Of a stretch of 64,000 bases of DNA, positions 317 to 57,210 are shown piece after piece (position 1 is the stretch's first letter; every line of letters begins with the position of its first letter). The notes under the pieces were generated by a model. The model was given only the letters and a program-made list of their open reading frames with translations, ran no database searches and was not told the origin of the DNA. Location: the NCBI RefSeq assembly GCF_025717535.1, contig NZ_JAJIRO010000005.1, forward strand, positions 62,001-126,000. Direction: 5' to 3'. The position numbers and the translations under genes are program-made. The stretch is from Paucibacter sp. Y2R2-4 (GTDB lineage Bacteria; Pseudomonadota; Gammaproteobacteria; Burkholderiales; Burkholderiaceae_C).

Positions 317-322
317 AATTAG

Positions 323-350
323 AAGGGAAGCCCAATGGCTTCCCTTTCTT
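323..350 (+). terminator. Intrinsic terminator after the Cys-Gly-Gly tRNA operon
   Basis: Perfect 10-bp stem (323-332 with 337-346) around loop CAAT, followed by TCTT. It ends the upstream tRNA transcript, so the tRNA-Leu beyond it needs its own promoter. Confidence 0.75.
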
Positions 351-428: not shown

Positions 429-473
429 GCCCGGGTGGTGAAATTGGTAGACGCAGCGGACTTAAAATCCGCT
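429..473 (+). pseudogene. tRNA-Leu(UAA), 5' half, cut by island insertion
   Basis: The acceptor strand GCCCGGG (429-435), D arm with GG, anticodon stem GCGGA/TCCGC and loop with anticodon TAA (463-465) are all intact. After about 473 no variable arm, T arm or 3' acceptor follows. The matching 3' part (T arm ACGGG/CCCGT, acceptor CCTGGGC, CCA) lies at about 39,003-39,034. GCCCGGG pairs with CCTGGGC as seven base pairs, one of them G-U. The two pieces are therefore read as one host gene split by about 38.5 kb. Confidence 0.85.
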
Positions 474-502
474 ACTGGCAGACTTGCTTAAGTTGTGCTG
501 AC

Positions 503-533
503 TTGACAAATTCTGTTATTGTGGACACATCAT
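503..533 (+). promoter_or_regulatory. Perfect -35 box overlapped by the terminal inverted repeat
   Basis: TTGACA at 503-508 is a consensus -35. The expected -10 region (525-531) falls in the island's 12-bp repeat TGGACACATCAT (522-533) and is a poor TATAAT match. The promoter would serve the island tRNA-Leu and the recombinases. A protein bound to the repeat would cover the -10, which would allow autoregulation (inference). Confidence 0.4.
522..533 (+). repeat. Left subterminal inverted repeat of the island
   Basis: TGGACACATCAT, exactly repeated as its reverse complement at 38953-38964 near the right end. Part of it also forms a 7-bp hairpin with 537-543. It may be a recombinase or accessory-protein binding site. 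Confidence 0.6.
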
Positions 534-549
534 CGCTGATGTGCCCGCT

Positions 550-636
550 GCCGGCGTGGCGAAATCGGTATACGCAAGGGACTTAAAATCCCTCCTCCTC
601 ACGGAGATGCGGGTTCAAGTCCCGCCGCCGGCACCA
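550..636 (+). tRNA. Island-borne complete tRNA-Leu(UAA)
   Basis: All parts fold: acceptor GCCGGCG/CGCCGGC, D arm with GG, anticodon stem AGGGA/TCCCT with anticodon TAA (584-586), a class II variable arm (594-608), T arm GCGGG/CCCGC and encoded CCA (634-636). It reads the same codon as the split host gene but differs from it in acceptor stem, D loop, anticodon stem and T arm, so it is not a duplicate of the host gene. It probably replaces the function lost on insertion. The first recombinase starts 16 nt after its CCA, so tRNA and recombinases probably share a transcript. Confidence 0.95.
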
Positions 637-652
637 CGGACACCGCCTATGC

Positions 653-2080
653 ATGTCCGTTCCTAAGCCTACTGTCTACACCCTGCCCATCCTTCGGCGC
701 AGCAAAGTCAGTGCCAAGCCTGGCCCTGGTTTCATCCCTGTTGACCACCACGTCCAGGGTCGGCACGTCAAGTACTGGCGTGAATTGGCGCCCGGTGAAA
801 AAGAGCGCAAGTGGTCCGCCTTCCCCCAATTCCCACTCGTCCTAAGCGGAGACTGCTCCCTCTGGGGCCCAGCCTGCCTCTGGCTGCTTGACCGGGCACG
901 CGCTCGTCCGCTGCATCTCTCTTCGTTGCCCTCTGTGGCTCAGGGACTTCGCGATTACCTGGGTTTCCTCGAAGACATGGGGCTTGCATGGGATGACTTT
1001 TCTTCGGTCGACAAGTACCTTCGTCCCACCTACCTCTACAAGACGCACCTTCAGGAATTGATCAATAAAGGTGAAACGAAAGCATCCACTGCAAGCCGAA
1101 AGATGAGCGCCGTCATCGGCATGTACCGTTTCTTGATGAGCGAAAGGAAGATGGGGTTCCAGCCAATGAACCCACCCTGGATCGACAAGGAGATCGGTCT
1201 TCACTACCGCGACAACAAGGGCTTCGGTCAGGTCCACACGGTCGCTTCCACCGACATCTCCATTCATGTTCCAACGCGTGATGACCCTTGGGACGCGACC
1301 ATTGATGATGGCGGCAAGCTCCGTCCTCTGCCCTCTGAGGAGCAGCGTGCCTTGGTCGCAGCACTCAAAAAGTTGGGCAATCGGGACTTTGAACTGATGC
1401 ACTACGTGGCCCTGTTCACCGGCGCCCGCGAGCAGACGGTATTGACACTGCGATGGGGGCACTTCAAAGCTCCACCGTCCAGCATCACGCAGTGGCCCTT
1501 CAAGCTTCCTTGTGGACCTGGGACAGGCATCGATACCAAGAGGGACGTGCCCAATGTCTTTCTGGTAATTCCTGAGTTTCTCTACGGGTGGCTTCATCAA
1601 TATGCCTGCTCAGAACGTGCTCGTTCACGTCGAGACAAGTCCCAGTTGGGTCAACACCCGGTGAACTACCTGTTCTTGAGCAACCAGGGCGGGCCGTACT
1701 ACGAGTCCAAGGACGATCGGAACGCCATGCGAGGTGCGGATGAGGTCCTGCGCCGTTCCTCGCCCACGGGACAGAACCTTCGCTCCTTCATCACCGACCG
1801 AGTCATCCCCGAGGTTCGCAAGACCATCCCTGGCTTCAAGTACCGGTTCCATGACCTCCGCGCCACGTTCGGTGTGAACTGGGTCCTTCACTGCGTCGGT
1901 AAAGAAGACGCCAAACAAAAGTACATGTTGGCCCGCGAGCAGTTGAGGCGACTCATGTGGCACAAGCATCCGACCACCACGGATCGCTACTTGGAGTACC
2001 ACGAGCACATGCACCATCTGGAAAAGGCGAAAGCGGATTGGGACCGTGTGTTGCTGGCCTTGGTCCAGTCGGCGACTTAG
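653..2080 (+). CDS. Tyrosine recombinase 1 (TnpA-like, catalytically complete)
   Basis: 475-residue site-specific recombinase expected to cut and rejoin DNA at the island ends. The N-terminal half (about 1-220) looks like a core-binding domain. The C-terminal half has the full catalytic set: R259 in TGAREQ, H400 and R403 in FHDLRA, H437 in MWHKHP and nucleophile Y446 in TDRYLEY. It begins 16 nt after the CCA of the island tRNA-Leu with no clear ribosome binding site, so translation may start on the short leader left by tRNA 3' processing. It is the first of three recombinase genes plus a small coiled-coil gene, the order of tnpA-tnpB-tnpC in Tn554 with one extra recombinase. The family is certain; the role in moving this island is inferred from position. 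Confidence 0.9.
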   Translation: MSVPKPTVYTLPILRRSKVSAKPGPGFIPVDHHVQGRHVKYWRELAPGEKERKWSAFPQFPLVLSGDCSLWGPACLWLLDRARARPLHLSSLPSVAQGLRDYLGFLEDMGLAWDDFSSVDKYLRPTYLYKTHLQELINKGETKASTASRKMSAVIGMYRFLMSERKMGFQPMNPPWIDKEIGLHYRDNKGFGQVHTVASTDISIHVPTRDDPWDATIDDGGKLRPLPSEEQRALVAALKKLGNRDFELMHYVALFTGAREQTVLTLRWGHFKAPPSSITQWPFKLPCGPGTGIDTKRDVPNVFLVIPEFLYGWLHQYACSERARSRRDKSQLGQHPVNYLFLSNQGGPYYESKDDRNAMRGADEVLRRSSPTGQNLRSFITDRVIPEVRKTIPGFKYRFHDLRATFGVNWVLHCVGKEDAKQKYMLAREQLRRLMWHKHPTTTDRYLEYHEHMHHLEKAKADWDRVLLALVQSAT

Positions 2081-2134
2081 TTGCCAACCTCGATTTGCTA
2101 ACTTCTCGTAGTCGATCAAAAACGTAACCAGCGC

Positions 2135-4066
2135 ATGAAACCTACTGACCCCTCTACGAGACCTGATGAATCCGGACTGACGGCAAAACTCGTGAAGTTC
2201 GACCCTTCGCGCCATGGTGGAGAGGTGATGCAAGACAAGCCGGTAGGAAACGAGTTCCCGCGGGGGGAGGCTGCGAGTTCGTGGATCTCAGCAAACCGAA
2301 ACTACACCAAGCGCCTGCCAGAGCTGGTCTACCCCTTCGAGCGCCTGCCTGATGTCTATGTGCCTGAGTCCACGGTTCTTAAGATCGATACTGACAAGCG
2401 ATGCCATGCCTTCCTATGGTGCTACTTGGACAGAAGGCTGAAAGGAAACTCAGCGGCCTTCAACCCCGCCTCGCTCTCACAGGCCAGAGTCGATGCGCTG
2501 CCCAAGGTCATTGATCGCCTCGCCAAACACTTCCGCTTCGAGGGCACACGAATTTGGACGATCCATAACAACCTCCGGCGCTTGGCGGCCTTACTGACCT
2601 GGGCCGACCGAGTCGAGCATCAGGGCCGGTATGAGACGGTTCTGAGCGATGACAAGCTCGCCCTTGAAGCGCTCAAGGGCTACCACCGGCACCTCAGGCA
2701 CCGGCTTCAAGCCCACCAGATTGGTCACATAACAGCGGCGACACTTGACCAAGCGGCCATCAAACTGATGTCGGAGATCCACGACCGCGTTTACTTGAAT
2801 GAGATTGAGCCTCTGCAAGAGGTCAAAGGCAACGGCACAAAACCTCCCCCAGATGCCCTGGTAGGGGCCTTCATGTCGACCCTTCAGGCGGTGTTCGACT
2901 CGGTGGTGGCCATGGATTTGGGCGCTGAACCTCAGGAGGCGACAGTGCTGAACCAGGGATTGAGGTTCTTGCGCACATCCGCCACTGACGACAGCTGCAA
3001 AGTTGCTGTCCCTGCAGCCTATGGTTCGACCCAACTCATGGAACTGGCCTGCTTGGGCTTCGCCGCGCTTTGCATTGGCGACTCTGGTGCGAACTTGGCC
3101 CAGATTCAAGCCTTCGAGGAGCCCGAGGATCTTGACGGTCAGCTCGATGATCCTGACCGAGTCAGCTTGACGAAGCGCGAGTTCAAGTTCCGCGCGGGCG
3201 GCAAGCCCGTGTCAGTTTATTTGAGCAGCACGACATTCACTCGGCTGCGCAGCTACCTGGGCCTGCGCCAGGCCCTGCTGGCACGCCTAGGCTGCCCTGA
3301 CCTCGCCAACCTGTTTGTTCAAGGGCAGTTCGAGGGTGGCCGGGCGCTCGCCGTCGTCAGTCTGCGCGGCTTGCATGGTCAATTCCCGTCCATGTTGAGG
3401 AGTCGCTTTGCTGCTTACGGCATTGAGCTTCCAAAGCTTACGCTGCGTCAACTGCGTGCCTTCAAGCAGCAGTACTTGGTCCGTCACCATGACCTCAAGG
3501 TGGCCGCGGACATGATGGGGCACTCCGTCCAGACTGCCGTCCGAGCCTATTCGAACGCTCAGGAGGATGTTCGCCTTTCTGACTTAAGTGGTTTCTTGTC
3601 ATCCTTGACCGACCGGGTCTTGTCCGCCTCCAACCCCCGTCCGAACCTTCAGATCGTTCAGATCCCAGCCGGCGAATGCAGCGGGCACCTCCATCCCGAA
3701 CCCATGCAAGCCAACCCCTTGGTGGAGCCCGACTGCAAGAAGACCGAGGGTTGCTTCTTCTGCAACAAGTTCCTCGTCCACGCTCATGAAGCTGACGCCC
3801 TCAAGCTGATGTCTTGCCGGCATGTCCTCTCTCGCCTGCTGCACCTGCAAGGTGACTCCCTCACTGCAGACCGTATTTACGGCGCGGTGACCGACCGCAT
3901 CGATGCCTTGCTGGCCGAGATCCAGCGCATGGCTCCGAAGGCGCATGCCGCTGCGTTGGAACAAGTGCAGCGGGGCGAACTGTCTAGGTATTGGTCCACC
4001 AAGCTCCAGCAACTCCATCTCTTGGGCGTTCTGGCTCCCACCCCCTCGTCCCAGAACCTGTCCTGA
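2135..4066 (+). CDS. Tyrosine-recombinase-like protein 2, catalytic residues replaced
   Basis: 643 residues, near the roughly 630 of Tn554 TnpB. The fold is recognisable at the C-terminal end: LRQLRAF (R438, R441) and MMGHSVQTAVRAYSNA (H463, Y472). Two catalytic positions are changed. The box I arginine is replaced by N320 in GDSGANLAQ, and the first histidine of HxLR by R438. It is therefore probably an accessory or structural partner, not an independent recombinase. The tail after about residue 510 has Cys and His residues spaced like a zinc site (C-x-G-H-x-H, then CKKTEGCFFC). An alternative start at 2228 has a much better ribosome binding site (GGAGAGG) and would give 612 residues. Confidence 0.85.
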   Translation: MKPTDPSTRPDESGLTAKLVKFDPSRHGGEVMQDKPVGNEFPRGEAASSWISANRNYTKRLPELVYPFERLPDVYVPESTVLKIDTDKRCHAFLWCYLDRRLKGNSAAFNPASLSQARVDALPKVIDRLAKHFRFEGTRIWTIHNNLRRLAALLTWADRVEHQGRYETVLSDDKLALEALKGYHRHLRHRLQAHQIGHITAATLDQAAIKLMSEIHDRVYLNEIEPLQEVKGNGTKPPPDALVGAFMSTLQAVFDSVVAMDLGAEPQEATVLNQGLRFLRTSATDDSCKVAVPAAYGSTQLMELACLGFAALCIGDSGANLAQIQAFEEPEDLDGQLDDPDRVSLTKREFKFRAGGKPVSVYLSSTTFTRLRSYLGLRQALLARLGCPDLANLFVQGQFEGGRALAVVSLRGLHGQFPSMLRSRFAAYGIELPKLTLRQLRAFKQQYLVRHHDLKVAADMMGHSVQTAVRAYSNAQEDVRLSDLSGFLSSLTDRVLSASNPRPNLQIVQIPAGECSGHLHPEPMQANPLVEPDCKKTEGCFFCNKFLVHAHEADALKLMSCRHVLSRLLHLQGDSLTADRIYGAVTDRIDALLAEIQRMAPKAHAAALEQVQRGELSRYWSTKLQQLHLLGVLAPTPSSQNLS

Positions 4067-4075
4067 AAGCGCCCT

Positions 4076-6022
4076 ATGGAACTCCCAATGAATCGATCTG
4101 ACAAGCTGCTATCGGTGCCCGGCCTGGCGGAAGACGATCCTGGGCCTCATGTGTACTTCCCTGCGGATCTGGTCGTCACCCGCGACGCCGAAGGCAACCC
4201 GTGCTCGCGCTACGGTGACTCCCGTTGGGACCTCAGTGCGCAGAGCACCGACGGCGTGTCGGGTCGCTCACTAGGCTTCTTCGAACTCGATCCGACGGTG
4301 GCCGTGTCCCAGGCATCCGGCGACCTTGCTCTTGTGATCCGGGAGCAGCACAAAGCCCTGATCTGGCTCTATATGGACGCGGGACGCCTCCGGGCGCCTT
4401 CAACTTGCGTGCGAGCCTGCTTGGCCTTGGGCCAATGGTGCACCAAAGCCCATGCGCTGGGCCTCACGCTCTTCGATCTGCTAACAGACCCTCGCTTGGT
4501 GGCTGAGCATGTGGTGGACTTGAACCAAACCTATGCCAATTCAAGCAGTGCCTTGATCCAAACCTTGTGGCGCAACAAAGCCACCTTGGGGGTCGAGGCG
4601 CACATTCGCTTGGCCGAACTCAAGGCCGCGATTGCGCTCGATCGGTCGGATCGAGACCGCGACGAACGGCAAACGCCCCTCATCCCCTCGCGCATCTATT
4701 GCGCCATGCTCGGCCAGTGGCTTGCCAGGCTCGACCTCATCGAAGGCGAGTTGGACGTCTTGCTCGATGCCTACCGACAAAGCATGGCCGCGTCCCGCGC
4801 GGCGCCTGAGGACGGGAGTCCCGGGCAGCGAAAGTACTTCCGCGCACAAGTTCTGCAAGTTGTCGTTGAGCGCATGAAAACCCTCGGCTACGATCCAGAC
4901 TCAATGGGCCCCCTTGATAATTTCATTGCCGGCCGACTTAACACCCACCAGTCCCAACTCATGCACGTGGTCATCGGCTTCACCGGAATGCGGGTGGGCG
5001 AGGCCAAAATCTTGCCCTTGCGCAATGCCATCGAACCAATCGAGGACGGTGCTAGACAAGGCCACTGGGTGAATGGCTACACCCACAAGCTGAATGGTGG
5101 GGTTAAGAAGCCCACCTCTTGGGTCACAAGCCCCGATGGGGCTCGGGCTATCCGCTTGGCCCAGCGCATTGCTGGCGTCATCCTGGAAGAAGTGTCCGCA
5201 GGCGATCCGGCCACCGATACCAAGGCGCTCCTGTTCCCCTCGACCGAGAACCCCTATCGAGCCAAAAACAGCTTAACCCTCTATGAGCACCAATCCCGCC
5301 TCGTTGAGCGCGACCAGATCTTGGTCACGCAAGAGGACATCGAAGAGTTGGATCGTCTGGAACTCCAGCGCGGTTGGGATCGTGAGGGCATCGTCGTAGG
5401 CCAACCCTGGCCCTTGGCCTTCCACCAATTGCGGCGCAGCCTGTCAGTCTATGCCCACCGCAGCGGCATGGTGAGCCTGCCTGCCTTGAAGGCCCAACTG
5501 CAGCACATCACCGATGAGATGCGCCGGTACTATTCGGACGGCTACTCAAAGGCTGTGAACCTGGTGTTCGATCCCGATCACTTCAGCCACGAGTGGAATG
5601 CCGCCAAAGAAGAAAGCAGCTACTTTGGTTATGTCATGGGTATGCTGTTCTCCGACGAGTCCTTGCTAGGACGAGGAGCCGAGCTCATGGTTCAGACCGT
5701 GACCAGCCGCACCCCACAGGAGACGCTGAAGCACTTCCGTGATGGCACCTTGGCCTACAAAGAAACGGTGCTGGGAGGTTGCGTCGCCACCGGAGAGTGC
5801 AAGACACCACCGCTGGAGCCCATCCCCTTCGACTGCCTAGAGAGCAACTGCATCAACATCGTTGTCCACGCCAGGCGGCTGGACCGAATCATTGACTCTC
5901 AGGAATCGGTGGTCTCCAGCCTGCAGTCAATGCAAGAGGGCAGTGTCGAACACCGACTGGAAGTCAATCACCTCAAGATCTTGCTTCAAGCCCGCCAAAA
6001 GCTGAAGGAGAAAGCAGCATGA
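4076..6022 (+). CDS. Tyrosine recombinase 3 (TnpB-like, large, catalytically complete)
   Basis: 648 residues. The catalytic set is visible: R306 in TGMRVGE, H450 and R453 in HQLRRS, H477 in LQHITDE and tyrosines Y485/Y486 in RRYYSDG. A Cys pair cluster follows near the C-terminus (GGCVATGEC, then DCLESNC), similar in placement to that of recombinase 2. It starts 9 nt after recombinase 2 and overlaps the next gene, so it is translated in the same operon. Paired with the inactive-looking recombinase 2 it suggests a heteromeric synaptic complex (inference). RIT elements also have three tyrosine recombinases, but theirs are smaller (roughly 300-420 residues) and lack a fourth small gene. Confidence 0.9.
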   Translation: MELPMNRSDKLLSVPGLAEDDPGPHVYFPADLVVTRDAEGNPCSRYGDSRWDLSAQSTDGVSGRSLGFFELDPTVAVSQASGDLALVIREQHKALIWLYMDAGRLRAPSTCVRACLALGQWCTKAHALGLTLFDLLTDPRLVAEHVVDLNQTYANSSSALIQTLWRNKATLGVEAHIRLAELKAAIALDRSDRDRDERQTPLIPSRIYCAMLGQWLARLDLIEGELDVLLDAYRQSMAASRAAPEDGSPGQRKYFRAQVLQVVVERMKTLGYDPDSMGPLDNFIAGRLNTHQSQLMHVVIGFTGMRVGEAKILPLRNAIEPIEDGARQGHWVNGYTHKLNGGVKKPTSWVTSPDGARAIRLAQRIAGVILEEVSAGDPATDTKALLFPSTENPYRAKNSLTLYEHQSRLVERDQILVTQEDIEELDRLELQRGWDREGIVVGQPWPLAFHQLRRSLSVYAHRSGMVSLPALKAQLQHITDEMRRYYSDGYSKAVNLVFDPDHFSHEWNAAKEESSYFGYVMGMLFSDESLLGRGAELMVQTVTSRTPQETLKHFRDGTLAYKETVLGGCVATGECKTPPLEPIPFDCLESNCINIVVHARRLDRIIDSQESVVSSLQSMQEGSVEHRLEVNHLKILLQARQKLKEKAA

Positions 6023-6396
6023 GCGCCAAAGTCCAGGTGGACAAGTACTACGCCGCCCTTGAGCGGTTGGTGGCTCGTGGGGACCCAATCAACAACGACA
6101 CCGTTGCGATTGAGGCGGGCAGCGGGCGGGGCAGCATCAAAAAGTCACGGCCAGCCTACGCAGAGTTGATCGCTGCCATCGACGCCGCTGCAAAGTCGCA
6201 GTCAGAGGCCAAGCTTGCCGCTGACCCGGTGCCTGGGCTAAGGCAGGACATTGAGTCCCTGACCCGTCGGCTCGACCAAGCCCTGGAGCGCGAGTTGTGC
6301 CTTCTTGAGGAGGTGTATGACCTGCGCGAGAAGAATCGCCAGCTTGAGGAAAACATCCGGTTGTTGAAGATGGGCAGGTTGGTGGAAGTCCGCTGA
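6019..6396 (+). CDS. Small HTH/coiled-coil accessory protein (TnpC-like)
   Basis: 125 residues. The start ATG overlaps the TGA of recombinase 3 by 4 nt, so translation is coupled. Residues about 20-50 (DTVAIEAGSGRGSIKKSR) look like a helix-turn-helix, and residues 75-120 form a strongly charged leucine heptad coiled coil. Tn554 TnpC is the same length and occupies the same last position; the gamma-mobile-trio islands also end in a small protein (GmtX). The expected role is DNA binding or assistance to the recombinases. Assignment rests on position, size and architecture. Confidence 0.75.
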   Translation: MSAKVQVDKYYAALERLVARGDPINNDTVAIEAGSGRGSIKKSRPAYAELIAAIDAAAKSQSEAKLAADPVPGLRQDIESLTRRLDQALERELCLLEEVYDLREKNRQLEENIRLLKMGRLVEVR

Positions 6397-6636
6397 TCCA
6401 GGACGGCACTCGATCTCGGGCTGGCTGTTGCCGGTACGCAGGAGCGTCCGGATCGTGGTTTGCCGATGTTGCTTCAAGACGTTCACCTCGTGAATCTCCC
6501 CCTCATGATCAAGGGTGAGGGAAGTTACGTCCTGCTCGTCAGAGCAGAGGCGCCTGACTTATCGAATTCACTGGTTCAATTTGCCCTGGACAAATGGAGC
6601 AGTTACCTGACCATGGGTGGGGCGGGCTGCTATCCA

Positions 6637-7524
6637 CTATTGGAATAGATCCTTCTCCACATGCGCCACATATCGGTTTGTATAAAAAAGATCGGGCTCA
6701 TGCCGGACGGGGCGAATGATCAGGCGAAAATCTGGTGATGCTGGCATTTTTGCATTAAAGGTAACCAGCCCGATCCCGAACATTTGACACAAAGACTCAA
6801 GGCGAGCCAGTTCATCAGGCGAGACGCCCTGTGGAATGACCAAATAACTCTTGTGGCTAAAAAGCTTATACGCGCAAGCTTGGCCGAAGCCGATCACCAA
6901 GCCGGTGGCATCCACTTTTATTTCGGCAGAAACAATGCTCGTCGGGCCTTTGATCACGTCACTCCTGCGGCTTTCAGATTTCCCGATGACGTCTGGCGTC
7001 CCCCATCTGTCCCGGAAGGCGTTACCACCCAGACTGATGGCGTGCGTAACCTCCTCCAGCTCATTTTTGAGCCAATGCGCAAAGAGCGGATAGAAAACAT
7101 CCTCCCTGATTCTTTGTTGAGATTGGGTTGATGATTCAAAATGAGGCGTCACAGCTTCGAGGTCTCTGAACGCAAGGTGTCTGAAAACACCCTTGATGGG
7201 CTTGTAAACTTTTTCTGGATGGACAACATCCAAGTTCCAGATTGAAGAGTTCACCGTGCTGTGCTTCAAGTCCGGCGCAATCTGGCAGATGTTCCGATGC
7301 AACTCTGAGTAGCGCAGTCCTTGGGGATTGGTGAGCAAAATTTCGAAAGCCAAGCCACGAATACGAGTACCAATGGGCTGCCTGGATTTGATTCGTTCGG
7401 TTGGATTTCTTGCTGTAGATGTTGTTATTGAACTTTCGACCATAGAGGCTTCATGGCAGCCATCAAAATGGCCAGAAGTGTAAACGTAAATGCTACTCAA
7501 AGTCTGTAGACTCAAAGTATTCAT
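6637..7524 (-). CDS. PD-(D/E)XK restriction-endonuclease-like protein with N-terminal winged helix
   Basis: 295 residues from the ATG at 7524, which has GAGGAG 10 nt upstream. An alternative ATG at 7443 (268 residues) would leave the operator repeats between the divergent genes. Residues about 50-120 resemble a HARE-type winged helix (RGLAFEILLTNPQGLRYSEL). Residues 176-203 give the nuclease core: D178 in GTPDV, then E201 and K203 in SAEIKVD. It is divergent from a small XRE regulator, as in restriction-modification systems with a controller protein, but no methyltransferase is in the window. It could be an orphan or type IV-like enzyme, or another nuclease effector. Its DNA target is unknown. 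Confidence 0.7.
   Translation of the reverse strand: MNTLSLQTLSSIYVYTSGHFDGCHEASMVESSITTSTARNPTERIKSRQPIGTRIRGLAFEILLTNPQGLRYSELHRNICQIAPDLKHSTVNSSIWNLDVVHPEKVYKPIKGVFRHLAFRDLEAVTPHFESSTQSQQRIREDVFYPLFAHWLKNELEEVTHAISLGGNAFRDRWGTPDVIGKSESRRSDVIKGPTSIVSAEIKVDATGLVIGFGQACAYKLFSHKSYLVIPQGVSPDELARLESLCQMFGIGLVTFNAKMPASPDFRLIIRPVRHEPDLFYTNRYVAHVEKDLFQ
7495..7518. promoter_or_regulatory. Candidate controller-protein operator
   Basis: Two direct copies of ACTCAAAGT (7495-7503 and 7510-7518), 15 bp apart, flank the palindrome AGTCTGTAGACT (7501-7512). The layout resembles the paired sites of restriction-modification controller proteins. It lies just upstream of the XRE gene and in, or just before, the 5' end of the nuclease gene, so one repressor could control both. 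Confidence 0.55.
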
Positions 7525-7544
7525 ACCAAGCAAGCTCCTCGCCC

Positions 7545-7778
7545 ATGGATCGGCGAGGACACCCACATCAATCGGCACGGGAACGCTTGGCACTTCGCCT
7601 GCGCGCTGAGCGTGCTCAACGGGGGCTCTCCCAAGAAGAACTGGCCGACCTGGCCGGGGTCCACCGCACCTACCTGGGTTCAGTTGAGCGGCAAGAGCGC
7701 AACATCAGCATAGACAACATCGAACAACTGGCCGCCGCTTTGGACTTGGACATCGCTGAGCTGCTGAAGCCGCTTTGA
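7545..7778 (+). CDS. XRE-family transcriptional regulator (controller-protein-like)
   Basis: 77 residues, almost entirely one HTH_3 domain. RLRAERAQRGLSQEELADLA is helices 1-2, GVHRTYLGSVERQERN the recognition part, and SIDNIEQLAAALDLDIAELL the dimer helices. Size and sequence type fit controller proteins of restriction-modification systems. It is transcribed away from the nuclease gene, with the repeat/palindrome operator at 7495-7518 between them. The likely job is timed control of the nuclease and of itself. Confidence 0.85.
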   Translation: MDRRGHPHQSARERLALRLRAERAQRGLSQEELADLAGVHRTYLGSVERQERNISIDNIEQLAAALDLDIAELLKPL

Positions 7779-7800
7779 CGGCCGGTGGTTTTCCAGATCA

Positions 7801-7944
7801 AGACCAAATCAGTATCGCGGCCTGGCTCGCCTGGTGAGCCCGGAGCAGATGACACCCGCGAATCTGTATGTCGCGATGACGCGCGGCGCCCGCCGTCTTG
7901 TCATTTGCTCTGCGAGCCAAACGCTCACGCCTGCTAGGAGCTGA
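7801..7944 (+). pseudogene. Remnant of a UvrD-like superfamily 1 helicase C-terminus
   Basis: The frame from 7801 to the TGA at 7942 reads a fragment containing TPANLYVAMTRGARRLVICS, which matches helicase motif VI and the following strand of UvrD/RecB-like proteins (LYVAxTRA-RxL). No upstream helicase motifs are present, so only the last 45 or so codons survive. The rest of 7945-8382 holds one copy of the dispersed repeat (8034-8053) and no gene that I recognise. Confidence 0.55.
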
Positions 7945-8033
7945 TCCAGCGGCAGGCAATCAGGTCGACGCGAGTGGCCGGCAGCTTTGCAGCGTTTGCT
8001 GACGGTCGCGGTCGGAGCTTGTACGGCGGCAAT

Positions 8034-8053
8034 GTGCCCAAAGCGGGTATTCG
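8034..8053 (+). repeat. Dispersed TGCCCA-type intergenic repeat, copy A
   Basis: Core GTGCCCAAAGCGGGTATTCG. One of six related 20-bp cores found between genes, only within the island. Confidence 0.5.
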
Positions 8054-8382
8054 CGCGGGCTCGGAGAATTCACACAATCGACCCTCAGCGATCGTTCGCG
8101 CATTCGAGCTTGCCTGCTCAAGACCTGTCGTTCAGTCTGGGAACGTCGAGATTTGGTTGCACCAGCGGCCCCTTAAGGCTGAGCATCACAACCAGTCTAG
8201 TGGCGGGCCCGTCGCGCGCTTAATTGCCAGCGCGATATAGCCGCGTGCCAAATCGCCGCCAGGTAATCAGAACTGCGTGTGCAAAGACGGGCGCACAATG
8301 CGGTTCGACGCCTTCGCAGATTCTTGAGTTAGCGCCGCCACACTCCTGGCCGCGGTACAGCAACCGTTCAAAGGAATTCCAA

Positions 8383-10131
8383 ATGCAGGTCGCTCCAGTC
8401 CGCGTGGATGAAGCCCAAAGCCTGTCGGCGCTGTCTGGATTGGAGGTTCTGGATACAGGGCCAGAAGCGCAGTTCGATGCCCTCGTTCGGGTAGCCTCGT
8501 TGGCCTGTGGCACGCCCATAGCCCTACTCAGCCTTGTCGACCGCAACCGCCAATGGTTCAAAGCCAACATAGGTCTGCCAGGTTTCACCCAGACGCCGCG
8601 TGACATCGCGTTCTGCGCGCATGGCGTGCTCGGCGATGACCTGCTCGAAGTACCGGATGCCCAGCTTGACTCACGCTTTGCCGACAACCCGCTCGTCACC
8701 GGGGAGCCGCATGTACGCTTTTACGCTGGCGCACCCATCCGCCTGAACGACGGGTACTGCATCGGCACGCTGTGCGTCGTCGACCACAAACCACGCCAAC
8801 TGGACGAAGCGCAACGTGACATCCTCCGGTCGCTTGCGCTGATGGCTTCCAGCGCGCTCGAAGCGCGACGCGCGCTGGTGGCTGCTGTCGATCTAGTCGA
8901 AGACTTGTACGACAACGCCCCGTGCGCCTACCACTCGCTCGACGCGCAAGGTACCTTTCTGCACATCAACGCCACGGAACTGGCATGGCTGGGTTGCACC
9001 CGGGAGGATGTCATTGGCAAGAGGCAGATGGCGGACTTTCTCACTGCAGAGGGGAGAGCCCTGTTGGAGGCCGCTTTCCCCAAACTGATGACTGTTGGGC
9101 GGTGTGAAGGTCTGGAGTTTGACCTGGTGCCGGCCAGCGGCGCAGGTCGCCGCGTGGGTGTGACCGCAACGGCCACTACCGACGCGGACGGAAACTTCCG
9201 GACCCGCTCCGTGATGTTCGATGTCACAGAACGCAGAGCAGCTGAACTGTTGGCTGCACGGCAGACAGCGACGCTGGTTTCGGTGACTGAGGCGATTCCC
9301 GGGACTGTCGCCATCATCGGAAGCGACGGCCTGTACCGCTACGTGAACGGTGCGTTCGAACGGTGGTCGGGGTTGCCACGAGAGCGAATCGTCGGATGCA
9401 CTGCGAGGCAGGTGCTGGGCGCGGCGGAATTTGAGCGCCATTGGCCCTGGGTACAGCGCGCCCTAGCGGGTGAGCCAGTGAACTTCGTCCTCGACTACCT
9501 GTCTCGCGACGGACCCACGTATGTGGAGCACAGTTGTATACCGCTCCGTCCAAACGATAGTGCGGTCGATGGCTTCGTGGTGGTTACGCACGATGTGACG
9601 CAGCAAAAACTGGAAGAGTCTCGTCTCCTCGGGCTGGCTGAGCACGACCCGTTAACCGGGCTCTTGAACCGTACCGGCTTCGAGCGTTACTTGGATCGCG
9701 CGCTCGCAGAGGGAAACAGCGCATCCCTGGCCTTACTGTATGTCGATCTGGACCATTTCAAGCCAGTCAACGACCAGCACGGACACCCAGTAGGTGACCA
9801 TGTCCTTCAAGCCTTCGCCAAGCGCCTGATGAACCTGGTCCGCCCGACCGACGCCGTGTCGCGCCTGGGCGGAGACGAATTTGCGATTGCGCTGCTGGGC
9901 ATTGAACAGCGCACGGACGCCGAGTTGGTGGCCGACAAGGTGCTGTCTGCGGCCAAGGCACCATTCCGCATCGACGGGTTGGAAATCACCATCGGCGCCA
10001 GCGTCGGAGTGGCGTTTGAGGACTGCCCCGTTAACGGATGGCAAGACTTGGTGAAACGGGCGGACGCAAAGTTACTGGTGGCCAAGGCCGGCGGCCGTGG
10101 GCGCCAGGTCGGGGCGCATGAAGTCGCCTGA
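8383..10131 (+). CDS. Diguanylate cyclase, GAF-PAS-PAS-GGDEF
   Basis: 582 residues from the ATG at 8383, chosen for its AAGGA ribosome site and because the GAF domain starts at once (LSALSGLEVLDTGPEAQFD). A GAF domain (about 20-170) and two PAS domains (about 185-300 and 310-420) precede GGDEF (about 425-580). The active site is intact (RLGGDEF near 493-499), and an RxxD inhibitory site (RPTD) lies five residues upstream. There is no EAL and no membrane segment. The protein should make c-di-GMP in response to a small ligand or redox/light signal; the signal is unknown. It is the first of three cyclases in the island. Confidence 0.9.
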   Translation: MQVAPVRVDEAQSLSALSGLEVLDTGPEAQFDALVRVASLACGTPIALLSLVDRNRQWFKANIGLPGFTQTPRDIAFCAHGVLGDDLLEVPDAQLDSRFADNPLVTGEPHVRFYAGAPIRLNDGYCIGTLCVVDHKPRQLDEAQRDILRSLALMASSALEARRALVAAVDLVEDLYDNAPCAYHSLDAQGTFLHINATELAWLGCTREDVIGKRQMADFLTAEGRALLEAAFPKLMTVGRCEGLEFDLVPASGAGRRVGVTATATTDADGNFRTRSVMFDVTERRAAELLAARQTATLVSVTEAIPGTVAIIGSDGLYRYVNGAFERWSGLPRERIVGCTARQVLGAAEFERHWPWVQRALAGEPVNFVLDYLSRDGPTYVEHSCIPLRPNDSAVDGFVVVTHDVTQQKLEESRLLGLAEHDPLTGLLNRTGFERYLDRALAEGNSASLALLYVDLDHFKPVNDQHGHPVGDHVLQAFAKRLMNLVRPTDAVSRLGGDEFAIALLGIEQRTDAELVADKVLSAAKAPFRIDGLEITIGASVGVAFEDCPVNGWQDLVKRADAKLLVAKAGGRGRQVGAHEVA

Positions 10132-10410
10132 CGCGACCATGGGCCGCCCTCATACTGACGCTAGCGAACGTCAGCAAGTGGCCGACTTAGTGAATTCATC
10201 GGGCCGGGTCGAATACCCGCTATGGGCACCGAGTTGCCGCACAGACCTTGCCCCCGAATTGTCTCGGCCCGCGATAGGCCGACAGTTCGAAGCAGCAACG
10301 AAAAGCTGATGTTCGCCTCGCCGACCATTTTGGTCAGTTCAATTCCGGCGGCGCCCGACACCCCGAATGTCAAGCCCGCCGAGATGCGCACTGACATCCA
10401 AGGCGCACTG
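10132..10410. other. Gene-free stretch after the first cyclase
   Basis: It holds a 6-bp hairpin (10155-10174, no T-run), copy B of the dispersed repeat, and no credible reading frame. Confidence 0.5.
10210..10229 (-). repeat. Dispersed TGCCCA-type intergenic repeat, copy B
   Basis: Read on the minus strand the core is GTGCCCATAGCGGGTATTCG, differing from copy A at one position in 20. Confidence 0.5.
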
Positions 10411-10452
10411 AAGGCTCAGACCCAGGCGCAACGCCTGGCTGGGCTCAGCCTT
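10411..10452 (-). terminator. Hairpin overlapping the end of the PEP-CTERM gene
   Basis: GC-rich inverted repeat (AAGGCT...AGGCG with CGCCT...AGCCTT) spanning the stop codon at 10445. No T-run follows, so termination is uncertain. Confidence 0.4.
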
Positions 10453-11116
10453 TGGACGGGCGCTGGGTTCGGGTCTTGCTGACGCGGGTGATAACCACCC
10501 CCAGACCCAGGGCCAAGAGTACCAGTGACGCAGGCTCGGGCACGGGGCCTAGGAGGACGTTGTCCAGTCGGCTGTCATCTGGGCCGGTCTTGAATTCGGC
10601 ATTGATTTGCAGCCGGGTAACATTGCCCAAGATAGTTTGGAACTGCGCTTCAGTGGGCGCCGCACCCGATGCCGGATTGAAGCCCGTGCCGCCCAGACGC
10701 CAGCGGGTGTCGGCCGCGGAGAGCGAAGCGACAAAGGTGCTGAAGGTGGGTAGAGGCGCGCCGCCGTACCAGTACAGCACCTGGTCGCCCGAGCCGATCA
10801 AGGCGGTGTAGTAGTCCGCGCCATTGCTGTCGATGGACACTTCGGTCAGGTCGAAGGACAGAGTGCTGCCGTACAAGGACGACCAGTTGCCCAGGAACTT
10901 GGCCGGTGCGCGGAAAGAGGTTTCGGCGAACTGGTCATCGGTCCGGATGACACCAGCCTCCCAACTGGCCGAGACACTACTGGTGCCTGGCAGGTCACTG
11001 ACGGACCAACCATCAGCATTCACATCAAAGGTGCTGCCCGCACCAGCCGCCTGTGCGCCAACGCCACTCAACAAGGCAAGTGCCAGAGCCCCAAGGGTGT
11101 GTTTTTTGGTGTTCAT
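10445..11116 (-). CDS. PEP-CTERM sorting-domain exoprotein 1
   Basis: 223 residues from the ATG at 11116 (GAAGG five bases upstream). It has an N-terminal signal peptide ending near AQAAGAG, a secreted beta-rich middle resembling laminin-B-type domains (TFDVNADGWSVSD near the start), and a C-terminal PEP-CTERM tail: VPEPASLVLLALGLG followed by basic residues. Such proteins are exported, cut by an exosortase and delivered to the surface or exopolysaccharide matrix. It is one of three PEP-CTERM genes within 5 kb on this strand. No exosortase is in the window, so processing must rely on one elsewhere. Confidence 0.85.
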   Translation of the reverse strand: MNTKKHTLGALALALLSGVGAQAAGAGSTFDVNADGWSVSDLPGTSSVSASWEAGVIRTDDQFAETSFRAPAKFLGNWSSLYGSTLSFDLTEVSIDSNGADYYTALIGSGDQVLYWYGGAPLPTFSTFVASLSAADTRWRLGGTGFNPASGAAPTEAQFQTILGNVTRLQINAEFKTGPDDSRLDNVLLGPVPEPASLVLLALGLGVVITRVSKTRTQRPSKG

Positions 11117-11466
11117 GCGCGCCTTCAAAATTTGAGGACTGTAATGAGTGCACCTTACGACAAATCGCCACTGACCGAAAGCCCTTGTTCATGGGCGCAC
11201 TGCGCCAACGCCCTCAGACAATGACAGAGATCGACTGCAGCCCCCCCGACGAAGGCGCACAGTTGCATCACTGATGCAGGTCACGAACATTGCGAAATAC
11301 AGAGACTAGGGATATCCGCTATTAGCCGTGAGAAGCAGTTCCCTGTTGAGCCACACAGTGGGCGTTCAATGCGTACAGCTTTCGCAGAACTTAATTGACC
11401 CAGGGCAAAGACACCGGCTGCGCGCCGGCGCATCTTGTTGGGCCCTCAACTCGATGGGAGACCATC
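11117..11466. other. Intergenic region before the solitary recombinase
   Basis: No gene recognised. It contains the upstream region of PEP-CTERM gene 1 (minus) and of the recombinase (plus). Confidence 0.5.
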
Positions 11467-12090
11467 ATGGGATCAGCAGCCGACAAAGCTCATCGCGAGC
11501 CGTGGAACAAAGGCAAGATCGTGGGCCAGAAAGCGCCATTCAAGCTAAAGGACATCTGGGCGCTCCGGGTTCGACTTCAGATAGAAGGCCGGGTGCGTGA
11601 GCTGGCTCTCTTTAACTTGGGGATCGACAGCAAACTGCGCGGCTGCGACCTCGTCAGCCTGAAGGTCCGGGACATTTGCCACGGGGAGCAGGTGGCGTCC
11701 CGCGCCATGGTGATGCAGAACAAAACCCAGCGCCCGGTGCAGTTCGAAATCACATCGGGTACCCGCGACGCTGTGCAGAAATGGATCAAGCTAGCGGCAT
11801 TGAAGTCCGACGACTTCCTGTTCCCAAGCCGAATTCATGACTCGCCACATCTGGGCACGAGGCAGTACGCGCGGATTCTTGAAGGCTGGGTGGAAGAACT
11901 GGGTCTGGATCGCGCCGACTACGGTACGCACTCGATGAGACGGACCAAGGCAACGTTGATCTATCGGCGCACAAAGAATCTACGCGCAGTGCAGTTGCTG
12001 TTGGGTCACTCTAAGCTGGAGTCAACCGTGCGGTACTTGGGCATCGAAGTCGACGATGCCCTGGAGATATCAGAACAGACCGAGGTTTGA
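11467..12090 (+). CDS. Solitary catalytic-domain tyrosine recombinase
   Basis: 207 residues from the ATG at 11467 (GGGAG seven bases upstream). It is essentially only the catalytic domain: R58 in SKLRGCDL, H155 and R158 in THSMRR, H181 in LLLGHSK and Y190 in STVRYLG. The usual N-terminal core-binding domain of XerC/D-type enzymes is missing. Free-standing proteins of this kind are widespread in Proteobacteria and poorly characterised. It sits in the middle of the island, away from the terminal trio, and is flanked by repeats B and C. It may come from another integrated element or act in dimer resolution. Confidence 0.85.
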   Translation: MGSAADKAHREPWNKGKIVGQKAPFKLKDIWALRVRLQIEGRVRELALFNLGIDSKLRGCDLVSLKVRDICHGEQVASRAMVMQNKTQRPVQFEITSGTRDAVQKWIKLAALKSDDFLFPSRIHDSPHLGTRQYARILEGWVEELGLDRADYGTHSMRRTKATLIYRRTKNLRAVQLLLGHSKLESTVRYLGIEVDDALEISEQTEV

Positions 12091-12241
12091 TCGAGATAAG
12101 GCCGTTTCCGCTCAGCCGGCAGCCACGGCTGGGCGGATTGCATCCCAAGGCGTTGGCCGAACGGCCCCTACCGAGCGCCTGCACGAGCGCCGGCTGTTGG
12201 CCATCTCCGAAAGCTCAGATGCCAAAGCTGAGCGCCGGAAA

Positions 12242-12261
12242 CGTGCCCAAAGCGGAAATTC
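12242..12261 (+). repeat. Dispersed TGCCCA-type intergenic repeat, copy C
   Basis: Core GTGCCCAAAGCGGAAATTCC, in the 293-bp gap between the solitary recombinase and the second cyclase; no gene is seen in that gap. Confidence 0.5.
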
Positions 12262-12383
12262 CAACTCAAGCTTTTAAAGCATGTCAGCAGCGGTTGCCGT
12301 CATACGCGGACAGTTAGATCATCGCCACCGCAATGCCTACCGCAATTTCCTCTCACGCAGCCGGTATAGCAGGCGAAGAATCG

Positions 12384-13316
12384 TCACGTCTTTGCCATCA
12401 GTACACCGTTGCCGCCGCTGCGTTTTACTTCGTACATAGCGGTGTCGGCCAGACTAAATGGACTGTCTATTGCAGTGTCCTGACTATCAATCAGGACAAC
12501 GCCGATACTCGCACTGCCACTATGAAGCAGGCCTTTGGTTTTATCTCCCACAGGTGTCAGATCGAAGTCAACGGCGAGGCAGGCCTGCAGGCGCTGAGCG
12601 ATCTCTATTGCAGCTTGCGCTGCGACTTTGGCTGACACGTCGATTTCGTCGAGCAGCACAACAAATTCGTCACCCCCAGTGCGCGCGACGGTGTCAACAG
12701 CTCGAACTGCGCCGACCATACGTCGGGCGGCCTGCACCAGGACATGATCGCCCGCCGCATGGCCGAGCGAGTCATTGAGCGGCTTGAAGTGATCCAAATC
12801 CACGACCATCAAGGCCGCAAAGCGCTTGCTGCGATGTAGCTTGACGAGCAAATGCTCAAGGCGCGTGGTCAGCAGCCGACGATTGGGCAATTGGGTCAGC
12901 GGATCGTGGAAGGCGAGTTGCTGCGCTCTTTCTTGTGCAGCATTGCGCTCGGTGACATCTATGAAAGTTGCGAGGAAGCTATCTCCAAGCGTGACGCCCG
13001 ATATCTCCATGATCACAGTCTGACCACTTTTGCAGCGAACTTTGTACTCTGTGGGCGCAATGTCTCGCTTTTCAGCGGCAGCGAGTGCTAGGGCCGCGTT
13101 CCAAGTGGTCTGGACCCAGCTGCGATAAATCGCATCGGGGTAGGCCAAATGCCACCAGTGATTCAGGGTCGGCATGTCCTGCCGGGTATAGCCGAAGATT
13201 TGCTTGAAGCGCACATTGGTCTTCAAGATCACGCCATTAGATGCCGCCCAGCACAGTGGGATCGGGACCTTCATGAAAAGTTCTTGAAAGTGGGAATTCA
13301 CGGAGCCTTTGAGCAT
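12384..13316 (-). CDS. Diguanylate cyclase, PAS-GGDEF
   Basis: 310 residues. A PAS domain (about 10-125, with KQIFGYTRQDMPTLNHWWHL) is followed by GGDEF (about 135-308). The active motif ARTGGDEFVVLLDE is complete and an RxxD inhibitory site (RAVD) is present. There are no membrane segments. It should synthesise c-di-GMP; the input signal is unknown. It runs opposite to the solitary recombinase. Confidence 0.9.
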   Translation of the reverse strand: MLKGSVNSHFQELFMKVPIPLCWAASNGVILKTNVRFKQIFGYTRQDMPTLNHWWHLAYPDAIYRSWVQTTWNAALALAAAEKRDIAPTEYKVRCKSGQTVIMEISGVTLGDSFLATFIDVTERNAAQERAQQLAFHDPLTQLPNRRLLTTRLEHLLVKLHRSKRFAALMVVDLDHFKPLNDSLGHAAGDHVLVQAARRMVGAVRAVDTVARTGGDEFVVLLDEIDVSAKVAAQAAIEIAQRLQACLAVDFDLTPVGDKTKGLLHSGSASIGVVLIDSQDTAIDSPFSLADTAMYEVKRSGGNGVLMAKT

Positions 13317-13576
13317 GACCTGAGCACTCCGTAAGCTGGTTCCTTCTTCCGTCTAGATTGGCACGCCAGAGCCCTCTGGGTGGGAGGAACGAAGGGCTGT
13401 GCAGCGTTTATCAATCTCGGTCCTTGCTTTTTTCGACCCATGGGCGGATCGGGTTCAAGGTAGAACTCTTCGACAAACTCGGGGTTGTCCGCCGCCGATT
13501 CTTCAAACACGCCAGCCGCCACGGGCGAATGGTTGATTGCACGAATGGCCAGTGCCATGGCTTGAGCCCGTTGCAA
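13298..13576 (-). CDS. Possible small hypothetical protein upstream of the cyclase
   Basis: Open frame of up to 92 codons (TTG start) overlapping the start of the PAS-GGDEF gene by 19 nt. The middle (ADNPEFVEEFYLEPDPPMG) has third-position GC typical of coding sequence here. No family is recognised. It could be a real small gene, a gene remnant, or chance. Confidence 0.3.
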   Translation of the reverse strand: MQRAQAMALAIRAINHSPVAAGVFEESAADNPEFVEEFYLEPDPPMGRKKQGPRLINAAQPFVPPTQRALACQSRRKKEPAYGVLRSCSKAP

Positions 13577-13868
13577 CAGTAGCTTCGAACTTTCGAGTGC
13601 ACATCGGGCTCATGCTTGCAAAACCTTCACACTCCCCAGTGCGCCGTGGAGCACTAGACCCCATGCCGGCGCTCCAAGTGCGGCATCGGAGGTAAACGGT
13701 GCTGCTCCGCAATTGGGTACGCAAGATCGTTTTCTGCCCATATCTTTGCCGTTTGGCGACAACGGCGACTTGAAAAGTCATCGGGGCACCGGACAGATGT
13801 CCCTTAGGTGATGATCGTGAGCCGAGCCATGTGAATGGCTCGGCAGTTCCTCATCGCTATCGAAGCAC
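13577..13868. other. Gene-free stretch holding a strong hairpin
   Basis: No gene recognised. The only clear structure is the perfect stem-loop at 13821-13844. Confidence 0.5.
13821..13844 (-). terminator. Stem-loop downstream of PEP-CTERM gene 2
   Basis: Perfect 10-bp stem (GCCGAGCCAT/ATGGCTCGGC) with a 4-nt loop, 24 nt after the stop codon. The T-run is missing, so it may stabilise the mRNA instead of terminating. Confidence 0.5.
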
Positions 13869-14504
13869 TCAAGCCGAATTGGTACGGCGGCTGATTGCGC
13901 CCGCAAAGATCAGACCGATGCCGAAGAGGGCCAAGGTGTTTGGCTCGGGCACAGCCGAGACGGCCGAGACGGCGATGTTGTCTATCGAGGAGCCACGGCT
14001 GTCGCTGATGCCTTCGGCTGACAAGGACAGCAGAGTCTGGCTGCTGTTAGCTTGCCAACGCACGCTGAAGTCATGCCAGACGTTGCCGCCGGTGTTGTTG
14101 AATTCCAGTACCGGTGCTGAGCCACTCAGGCCTCCGATGGCCCAGCCGATACCATTGGAATCCACCGCCAAGCCCGTACGGTTGGAGTAGGCGAACGTCA
14201 ACTCGTACCACTGACCCACCACCGTGTCGAGCGTCTGGGTGATGGCAGCGTTGGCAGCGCCTTCCAATTCCAAATAATTGCTGCCATCAAAAGCCTTGCC
14301 AAAGACATTGTTGCGAAGCTCTACGCTGGTGCCCAGGATCTTCCAGTCAGGCAGCCAGTACCAGCTATTGGAATTGTCGGGCATTGCCCAGCCGCCATCA
14401 GGCATTGCCCTGGCCTCAAAGCTGCCGTTTTTAACCAAGTTGACCGGACCTGCTTGGCTAAGCAATGGAGTGGCCAGGCAAAGTGCGAGAAGAATTTTTT
14501 TCAT
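13869..14504 (-). CDS. PEP-CTERM sorting-domain exoprotein 2 (DUF642-like)
   Basis: 211 residues from the ATG at 14504, which places a signal peptide (MKKILLALCLATPLLSQAGP) at the N-terminus. The body starts LVKNGSFEA and includes DWKILGTSVELRN and GSNYLELEG, the pattern of DUF642-like carbohydrate-binding beta sandwiches. The tail is VPEPNTLALFGIGLIFAGA followed by RRTNSA, a standard PEP-CTERM signal. It is predicted to be surface-exposed or matrix-associated after exosortase processing. Confidence 0.88.
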   Translation of the reverse strand: MKKILLALCLATPLLSQAGPVNLVKNGSFEARAMPDGGWAMPDNSNSWYWLPDWKILGTSVELRNNVFGKAFDGSNYLELEGAANAAITQTLDTVVGQWYELTFAYSNRTGLAVDSNGIGWAIGGLSGSAPVLEFNNTGGNVWHDFSVRWQANSSQTLLSLSAEGISDSRGSSIDNIAVSAVSAVPEPNTLALFGIGLIFAGAISRRTNSA

Positions 14505-14829
14505 GTTCAGTATTTCAGAAGTTAGTAAGTTGCCGTGATGATTGCCTGGATTTTCCAAGCAATGCAAAATATTTATGTTTTACTGGAAAGTGATTTTATT
14601 ATTTTGTATTCTGTTTCTTTGTTTGGCTAAACGTGTTGGCAGCTCATTGGCTGCTCACGAAAAATATCGCGATTTTTTTGGCGTTCAAAATCGTTTCTCT
14701 CACGACTATTTATCCCGATTTCTTAATTCGTGCCAAATCACCCTGGGTGTAAGTCACCTTGGTCAACTTGGGCATATATCGAGTACGCGAACTATTTCTT
14801 CCGTGAGCGCGCTGATACCGTTTTAGCAA
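14505..14829. other. AT-rich intergenic region between PEP-CTERM genes
   Basis: Much richer in A and T than its surroundings (for example 14570-14700). No gene recognised; probably promoter DNA of PEP-CTERM gene 2 and possibly foreign. Confidence 0.5.
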
Positions 14830-15558: not shown

Positions 15559-15577
15559 GTTGATGTTTGTCGCTCCA

Positions 15578-15618
15578 ATTGGGCGTCGAGCGGTGTCTGC
15601 TACCTAGGTAGCCCAATT
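15578..15618. promoter_or_regulatory. Nested palindromes upstream of PEP-CTERM gene 3
   Basis: A perfect 14-bp palindrome GCTACCTAGGTAGC (15599-15612) lies within an outer inverted repeat AATTGGGC/GCCCAATT (15578-15585 and 15611-15618), starting 20 bp before the gene. It is a plausible operator, possibly for the TPR-LuxR regulator nearby. The rest of 15619-16223 has no gene. Confidence 0.45.
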
Positions 15619-16223
15619 TTGGCTGGAGCCCTAAATAGCCCATGACAGATCGTTGCTAACCAAGGGACTAGGAGCGAACGCTCTTATTCGAGGTAAGTGG
15701 CGCCGAGCGATATTGGCGACAGTATTGACGGGTTAGCGCGGCAGATTTAATCCGCTCTCGCGTCAATGTGCCGACCTGTATGCGTCCTTACCCAGATGCC
15801 CTACATGACCAGAGCATTCGGTCGTTTCGAAACGGGACTACCAATAACTTCAAACTGGCAATGATCAGTTGACTACGCTCTCGCTGCTCGCCTGTTGGCG
15901 TGCAAAGTGACAGTTGAAACTGCAGCATGAGATTCGCATCCAATGAGTTTTGATGGAGCGAACTTTACTTTTGCGGTTTTCTTTTCGCCTCACCCGCGCC
16001 GGGTGGGGTGGGGCGACAGTGGGGCACGGCTCGCGTTATCCAGGGCATTGGGACGGCATCTCCGAGTGACTCGTGTTACGCCCCCCCGGCGACGGGGGGG
16101 GGCATGCGAATAGGGTGGAGTTTTGAGAAATACTTCACTCTTCCGCTTTTTTGTGCTGCTCGCACTCCGATTTACGAGAAACACGCCTATGCCAGAAAGG
16201 GACTTCCACCCTACATTTGCGCC

Positions 16224-18011: not shown

Positions 18012-18134
18012 GCACCCCTGGGCCGCTGCACCCAGCCCCCATATTCATATCTGTCGAAAATCCGCGACTGTTGGCGATTGCAGGGAATGGACCCATCACG
18101 ATCACGCAATACAGAGCCACACCTAGAGGCTTAT

Positions 18135-21275: not shown

Positions 21276-21277
21276 AA

Positions 21278-26154: not shown

Positions 26155-26157
26155 GTA

Positions 26158-57197: not shown

Positions 57198-57210
57198 ATT
57201 CTTTCTTAGT

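Follow-up and report, generated by a model that had tools for sequence, protein, structure and literature searches.

How can a mobile element settle inside a tRNA gene that its host would need? The question is raised by a 64,000-nt stretch of contig NZ_JAJIRO010000005.1 of Paucibacter sp. Y2R2-4, here called the window, to which all coordinates refer. An island interrupts a tRNA-Leu(UAA) gene there, and an earlier note on this DNA had proposed that a second, complete tRNA-Leu(UAA) just inside the island stands in for the broken one. The features around the two island ends are given below; G014 is a congener carrying the same tRNA gene uninterrupted, and SE stands for strand-biased circularizing integrative element.

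322..347, + strand: hairpin resembling a terminator, in the interval from the last tRNA-Gly to the host tRNA-Leu
429..472, + strand: 5' portion (44 nt) of the host tRNA-Leu(UAA), with no difference from that segment of the intact G014 gene
467..472, + strand: ATCCGC, the target's own 6-bp spacer ('fingerprint' in SE terms), beside the left motif and present in the uninterrupted G014 gene
473..38985, no strand assigned: integrated mobile island of 38,513 bp, ends set by comparison with the G014 empty allele
473..487, + strand: left terminal motif TACTGGCAGACTTGC, an imperfect inverted repeat of 38971-38985 (10/15 identical by eye)
523..546, + strand: leader inverted repeat GGACACATCA-TCGC-TGATGTGCCC, by sequence; similar leaders occur in several, not all, elements carrying a tRNA
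550..636, + strand: complete, putative substitute tRNA-Leu(UAA) of the island (ARAGORN, tRNA census, covariation)
38971..38985, - strand: right terminal motif CATTCGCAGGCTAGC, read on the - strand (by eye)
38986..38991, + strand: AAGCGC, 6 bp at the right end, absent from the empty site (comparison with G014)
38992..39034, + strand: 3' 43 nt of the host tRNA-Leu(UAA) (comparison with the G014 empty allele)

Joined together, 429-472 and 38992-39034 form an 87-nt tRNA identical at 87 of 87 positions to the intact gene of the island-free G014; the insertion point lies in the anticodon stem, on its 3' side. A tRNA cluster (Cys, Gly, Gly) precedes the broken 5' part and a fliR-like export gene adjoins the island on the right. 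ARAGORN calls a tRNA-Leu with anticodon TAA at 550-636 on the + strand, 77 nt from the island's beginning at 473; together with the G014 comparison, this confirms the note's description of a complete tRNA sharing the anticodon of the destroyed gene. Its remark on different stems was equally accurate, the acceptor stem reading GCCGGCG against GCCCGGG in the host gene and the anticodon stem AGGGA/TCCCT against GCGGA/TCCGC, with the variable arm and T stem also unlike. These features bear on the conventional account of islands in tRNA genes, in which an identical stretch in the attachment site makes the tRNA whole again, as in most tRNA-integrating islands (PMC4383910), and 550-636 would be an old duplicate of the target. 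Here, however, neither junction is restored and each host half lacks its partner, and the inner gene is complete, begins 77 nt inside the island and is unlike the host gene in its acceptor, anticodon, variable and T stems. The conventional account is thus hardly credible for this locus.

The genome (5.13 Mb, nine contigs, given as 100% complete) yields 52 tRNA matches. ARAGORN, run on stretches covering all 52, gives a tRNA-Leu set of CAA, CAG (twice), TAG, GAG and a single TAA, that of the island; no second complete tRNA-Leu(UAA) was found among the 52. In a pattern search of this genome tolerating three mismatches, which a very different gene could escape, the only TAA-type matches were the broken half and 550-636. 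The same search over 20 genomes never returned more than one complete TAA-type gene per genome; two congeners discussed below, G005 and G002, have one complete TAA gene each among the long tRNAs retrieved, to which the pattern search adds none. With one complete copy, the island's, and no other intact host copy found, the proposal of a substitute gains support: the sole host tRNA-Leu(UAA) found is broken and a copy of unlike sequence is supplied.

UUA codons are read only by tRNA-Leu(UAA). They are rare in host ORFs (TTA makes up 10 of 6224 codons in 19 flanking ORFs) and, since they are present there and no other tRNA reads them, the carried tRNA would be needed. In gene content it appears to be the cell's sole tRNA-Leu(UAA), and its structure and compensatory changes suggest a working role, in which it would be transcribed and charged. 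A consensus promoter scan found no promoter ahead of it; TATAAT-like hexamers were seen by eye at the corresponding place in several relatives. Minimum-energy folding of 550-636 alone did not produce the full cloverleaf, which is drawn instead from ARAGORN and from the covariation described below.

What kind of element carries this gene? The left end of the island holds an operon of four genes, of 475, 643, 648 and 125 codons.

653..2080, + strand: first recombinase, 475 aa, tyrosine recombinase, IntA-like (PHROGs phrog_1 integrase, 7.9e-12)
2135..4066, + strand: recombinase-like protein, 643 aa, Tfp-like, without the first catalytic Arg (SGAN) and with a C-rich motif, CKKTEGCFFC (alignment)
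4076..6022, + strand: second large recombinase, 648 aa, IntB-like by motifs only (GMR, HQxRR, LQHI and YY)
6019..6396, + strand: small protein of 125 aa, fourth in the operon, at the position of Srap/GinD/TnpC (ORF layout)

The first recombinase has the full tyrosine recombinase set (R259, H400, R403, H437 and Y446), invariant in eight aligned relatives; Pfam gave it a sub-threshold integrase N-terminal domain only and NCBIfam no match. The 643-aa protein matched nothing in Pfam, NCBIfam or PHROGs at 0.01, the 648-aa recombinase no family in the same three collections and the 125-aa protein nothing in PHROGs. The first Arg is missing from the second protein of the window and of all 18 aligned relatives. 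The third protein shows motifs of the R-H-R-H-Y type (GMR, HQxRR, KHI/QHI-type and YY) in 19 of 19 sequences, one of which (L164) reads KHL, and the four-gene layout recurs in the ORF lists of 18 relatives. Judged from these genes, the island is an SE/GInt-type element comprising a catalytic recombinase, an Arg-less recombinase-like protein, a second catalytic recombinase and a small protein. As cargo, Pfam identified among 18 island ORFs GGDEF, EAL, PAS and kinase proteins, a chemotaxis receptor, an amidohydrolase, a PHB-depolymerase-type esterase, a catalase and a small multidrug transporter; relaxase or conjugation genes were not among them. An additional short integrase of 231 aa (11395-12090, Pfam Phage_integrase) is probably a remnant.

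The operon order of SEs is described as IntA, Tfp, IntB, Srap (PMC10214605). The island resembles SEs (PMC10214605, PMC9345347) in this four-gene order, in its imperfect terminal inverted repeats and in keeping the target's 6 bp at the left end with a different 6 bp at the right. AAGCGC at 38986-38991 would on this pattern be the probable footprint of the island's previous location. The fingerprint and footprint reading draws on two elements for which both ends are known, that of the window and that of G005, a one-contig genome in which both ends were seen at the same tRNA-Leu site; there the left spacer is again ATCCGC, the right 6 bp, in the place of AAGCGC, are AAGATT, and the terminal inverted repeats are 12/17 identical (by eye). 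Unlike the SEs described, the island has a betaproteobacterial host, a tRNA gene as target and a replacement on board; Betaproteobacteria are reported to lack Tfp and Srap relatives (PMC10214605). GInts, islands with three integrases (PMC5385486), likewise have a four-gene recombinase operon at one end, a large cargo and few specific sites, often gene ends, but their Arg-less protein comes third (GinC, in the order ginA, ginB, ginC, ginD) and here it comes second. The word 'tRNA' is absent from the main texts of PMC5385486, PMC10214605 and PMC9345347. At the ends themselves, GATGTGTCC of the leader recurs close to the right end of the island (38955-38963), and the left ends of L131, L133, L134, L137 and L138 repeat the terminal motif directly some 30 nt further in (by eye), possibly a second recombinase site.

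The first recombinase is present in three of 18 congener genomes, namely the window's, G005 (58%) and G009 (59%), and in 15 of 399 genomes of the family at 1e-20. A scan of named genomes gave at least 80 loci, and in eight of the 80 matches listed a complete tRNA-Leu(UAA) lies directly upstream: Inhella gelatinilytica, Paraburkholderia sp. UYCP14C, a Rubrivivax MAG, MAG LL3.bin32, Paenacidovorax caeni, Pseudorhodoferax soli, Pelomonas sp. UHG3 and Pelomonas aquatica. With the window and G005, this makes ten carriers, so that nine further related elements combine a similar tRNA with a similar recombinase operon. In all ten, the tRNA-Leu(UAA) is on the recombinase strand and stops 17-47 nt short of the point where the match to the first recombinase begins. 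Other kinds of tRNA were absent from the 150 nt upstream in the 80 listed loci, ten of which have less than 400 nt upstream; at L174 a tRNA-Arg lies 0.4 kb away on the opposite strand. Elements on viral contigs were not confirmed in the viral_contigs scan, and phages gave one weak record.

Nine of the ten carriers adjoin a broken host tRNA-Leu(UAA). In the tenth (L132), the 5' half of the host gene lies at the right end and the left flank holds no host half, which may reflect rearrangement, a tandem element or a MAG chimera. Among the 70 of 80 listed loci with at least 400 nt upstream, the ten with shorter flanks being left out, a native tRNA was searched in 1.2 kb upstream of the recombinase: a host tRNA-Leu fragment was found at seven of eight loci with a carried tRNA versus none of 62 without (Fisher p 6.7e-9, a value that overstates the association because the carried-tRNA state needs three changes on a recombinase tree of 37 rows and independent replicates are therefore few). 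Elements of the window, G005 and Inhella run along the tRNA, and those of Paraburkholderia, LL3.bin32, Paenacidovorax and Pseudorhodoferax are reversed, with the 3' half on the left (by eye). For the Pseudorhodoferax and Pelomonas aquatica islands, the stretches retrieved did not show a right end. In both Pelomonas elements the cut falls near the T-stem/acceptor junction (by eye); the tRNAs they carry retain the native anticodon stem GCGGA and have no encoded CCA. For Pelomonas aquatica (G252), ARAGORN reports tRNA-Leu(UAA) twice, once for the carried gene and once for the host copy, which is counted as broken because by eye the two ends of its acceptor stem fail to pair.

Relatives at other sites lack a tRNA. 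Four of them (L126, L127, L129 and L130) lie at the stop codon of a ychF-like gene or immediately after it (gene by eye), some 60-120 nt before the first recombinase match, and their group is nested among the carriers on the tree; such an insertion hardly damages its target and is another way of sparing the host. The G174 element, also without a tRNA, lies inside an aminotransferase gene (gene by eye). In the more distant Stutzerimonas element (L164, 35%) the leader holds no tRNA, and an intact tRNA-Leu(UAA) was noticed 9.9 kb downstream (at about 19.9 kb) on the other strand, beside Cys and Gly genes.

This distribution weighs on two further explanations. The carried tRNA could be ordinary cargo, serving the UUA codons of island genes or resisting tRNA-cutting defences, its match to the target being a coincidence. 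Stretches similar to it do occur in 22 phage and 42 'plasmid' records, several annotated as tRNA-Leu (the best 12 phage and best 12 plasmid rows are 75-83% identical to it, and one phage and five plasmid records fall in the 90-95% band), and TTA is slightly commoner in 16 island ORFs (21/8180 codons) than in the 19 flanking ones (10/6224). Yet the four recombinase-operon genes contain only 0-2 TTA codons each, and anticodon, place and strand are the same in ten elements, exclusively those at tRNA-Leu(UAA), with relatives elsewhere lacking a tRNA; we consider ordinary cargo very improbable. Alternatively, the tRNA might mainly regulate the recombinase operon, its processing freeing the recombinase mRNA, with rescue as a secondary effect. 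Its position directly ahead of the first recombinase in ten of ten carriers, 17-47 nt before the matched start, would suit such a role; relatives at other sites nevertheless manage without a tRNA, and rescue would still be compatible with it. Regulation as the main role has a small chance of being right.

Across the ten carried tRNAs, pairing holds in 98.8% of the 240 stem cells, and for 12 of the 24 pairs both sides have changed. Their covariation score is 0.417 versus 0.152 in shuffles, a value that none of 500 shuffles reached; the number of additional pair types was equalled in eight of 500. Chance or misannotation as the source of the carried tRNA is ruled out by its recurrence in ten elements together with these compensatory changes. 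As to the target sequence, the native core ATCCGC has become ATCCCT (in five), ACCCTT, ACCCCT or ATCCCC in the eight carriers that cut the anticodon stem (L132 among them, judged from one end), and the other strand of the stem also differs from GCGGAC in all eight. The exact target stem is found in 75 of 120 family genomes, one of these matches being the window's own broken half, and against this baseline its absence from eight of eight carried tRNAs, of four distinct types, is suggestive and not decisive. The changed stem would make the carried tRNA resistant to re-insertion by its own element.

Does the substitute remain when the island has gone? The locus was surveyed in 18 congeners, counting the window's genome: the native gene is there in 12, an island with its tRNA in two, the island-type tRNA without an island in one (G002), and three were unreadable. 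That the tRNA came with the island, as the earlier note had it, is borne out by the 12 congeners of native type and does not hold as simply for G002, an island-free relative with the island-type tRNA at this very locus. G002 is best read as a fossil of replacement, since 12 of 18 congeners are native at the locus and the two others of island type have the island. In G002 and three further genomes (G255, G135 and G296) the island-type tRNA is the only TAA type matched by the pattern and no recombinase matches at 1e-20; all four are probable fossils. The native half in G002 is gone save for a possible decayed 5' start ahead of the new tRNA (by eye), with GGACA behind it. G296 retains 12 leader bases identical to those of the window (GATGTGCCCGCT) and G135 the last nine of them; GGACAC follows the tRNA directly in G296 and G255, likewise in five of the ten elements. 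In G002 (L110, 930-7550) the island-type tRNA and fliR are separated by about 6.6 kb of genes that look by eye like acyl-CoA and thiolase types; these may be left-over cargo.

G002 could also represent the ancestral state, the GCCGGCG-type tRNA-Leu being native to the genus and captured locally by islands. Besides G002 itself, this would fit genera g37 and g119 (four genomes each; L212, L214 and sister loci), in which the GCCGGCG type is the only TAA type found, with no Gly or Cys genes nearby. Against it, 12 of 18 congeners have GCCCGGG at the locus, islands in Inhella, Paraburkholderia and Paenacidovorax carry an almost identical tRNA, and G002 keeps the apparent decayed native 5' end (by eye) and GGACA behind the new tRNA. 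We judge a native origin improbable; the g37 and g119 genes are perhaps donors or older replacements.

Taken as a whole, the evidence favours, with a probability of roughly 0.87, an SE/GInt-type island that breaks tRNA-Leu(UAA) and supplies an unlike, presumably resistant substitute that may outlive it. The island would target the anticodon stem of the gene; the two host halves show that it has cut the gene and left it broken. The complete unlike tRNA-Leu(UAA) that it carries as the first gene behind its left end, ahead of the recombinases, is then the sole complete gene found in the cell for a tRNA reading UUA. Lacking the target sequence in its stem, as seen in the anticodon-stem cutters, the substitute should escape attack by the element, and the four probable fossils suggest that it can outlast the island and persist as the host tRNA-Leu(UAA). 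Replacement of the broken tRNA by the carried one is strongly supported; addiction, immunity and essentiality are inferred. Since precise excision would restore a perfect native tRNA, the addiction-like effect that the earlier note foresaw would arise only upon imprecise loss or if the island does not excise. SEs are reported to leave no empty site (PMC9345347), and by analogy the loss of the host gene would be lasting for this element too.

Synthetic gene drives of the cleave-and-rescue type knock out an essential gene while supplying a recoded version of it that resists them. The island differs from them in being natural, in acting by insertion rather than by cutting in trans and in dealing with a tRNA rather than a protein gene. 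A full natural counterpart, in which the element breaks a single-copy essential tRNA, carries a copy into which it cannot insert, renders the host dependent, blocks re-insertion, can leave the substitute in the host for good and drives tRNA turnover across genera, is a tentative extension to which we give slightly less than even odds.

Other tRNA-associated elements were compared. Islands are described as restoring the tRNA they split through a tDNA fragment (Islander, PMC4383910); they share with the present island tyrosine recombinases, a tRNA target and the anticodon region as a known sub-site, but here the target stays broken and a whole unlike gene replaces it. The nearest precedent found is that of Sinorhizobium meliloti prophages and islands (PMC11476347), which reside in essential tRNA genes and some of which have an extra Met/fMet tRNA gene; their attachment at the tRNA 3' end, in contrast, keeps the target functional, and the available portions of PMC11476347 do not describe replacement of a broken target tRNA. 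Tycheposons (related islands in PMC10872708) also combine a tyrosine recombinase with a complete tRNA at the border, whereas here the host target is split mid-gene and the carried tRNA is unlike it. No description of such tRNA replacement was found in the literature searched, which took in few subscription papers. What is new is the unlike substitute for a broken target; the SE/GInt kind of element is known. Islands in tRNA genes are usually deemed harmless since the attachment site restores the target, a rule that this island family breaks, making up for it with a complete substitute gene. Its behaviour would explain the foreign replacement of a single-copy tRNA and is paralleled by rescue drives that have been engineered; whether a mobile element holds its host through an essential tRNA thereby becomes testable.

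Further along the window, near a flagellar export gene, 54906-58186 contains three diverged tandem copies (74-79%) of an ORF of about 280 aa, perhaps flagellins.
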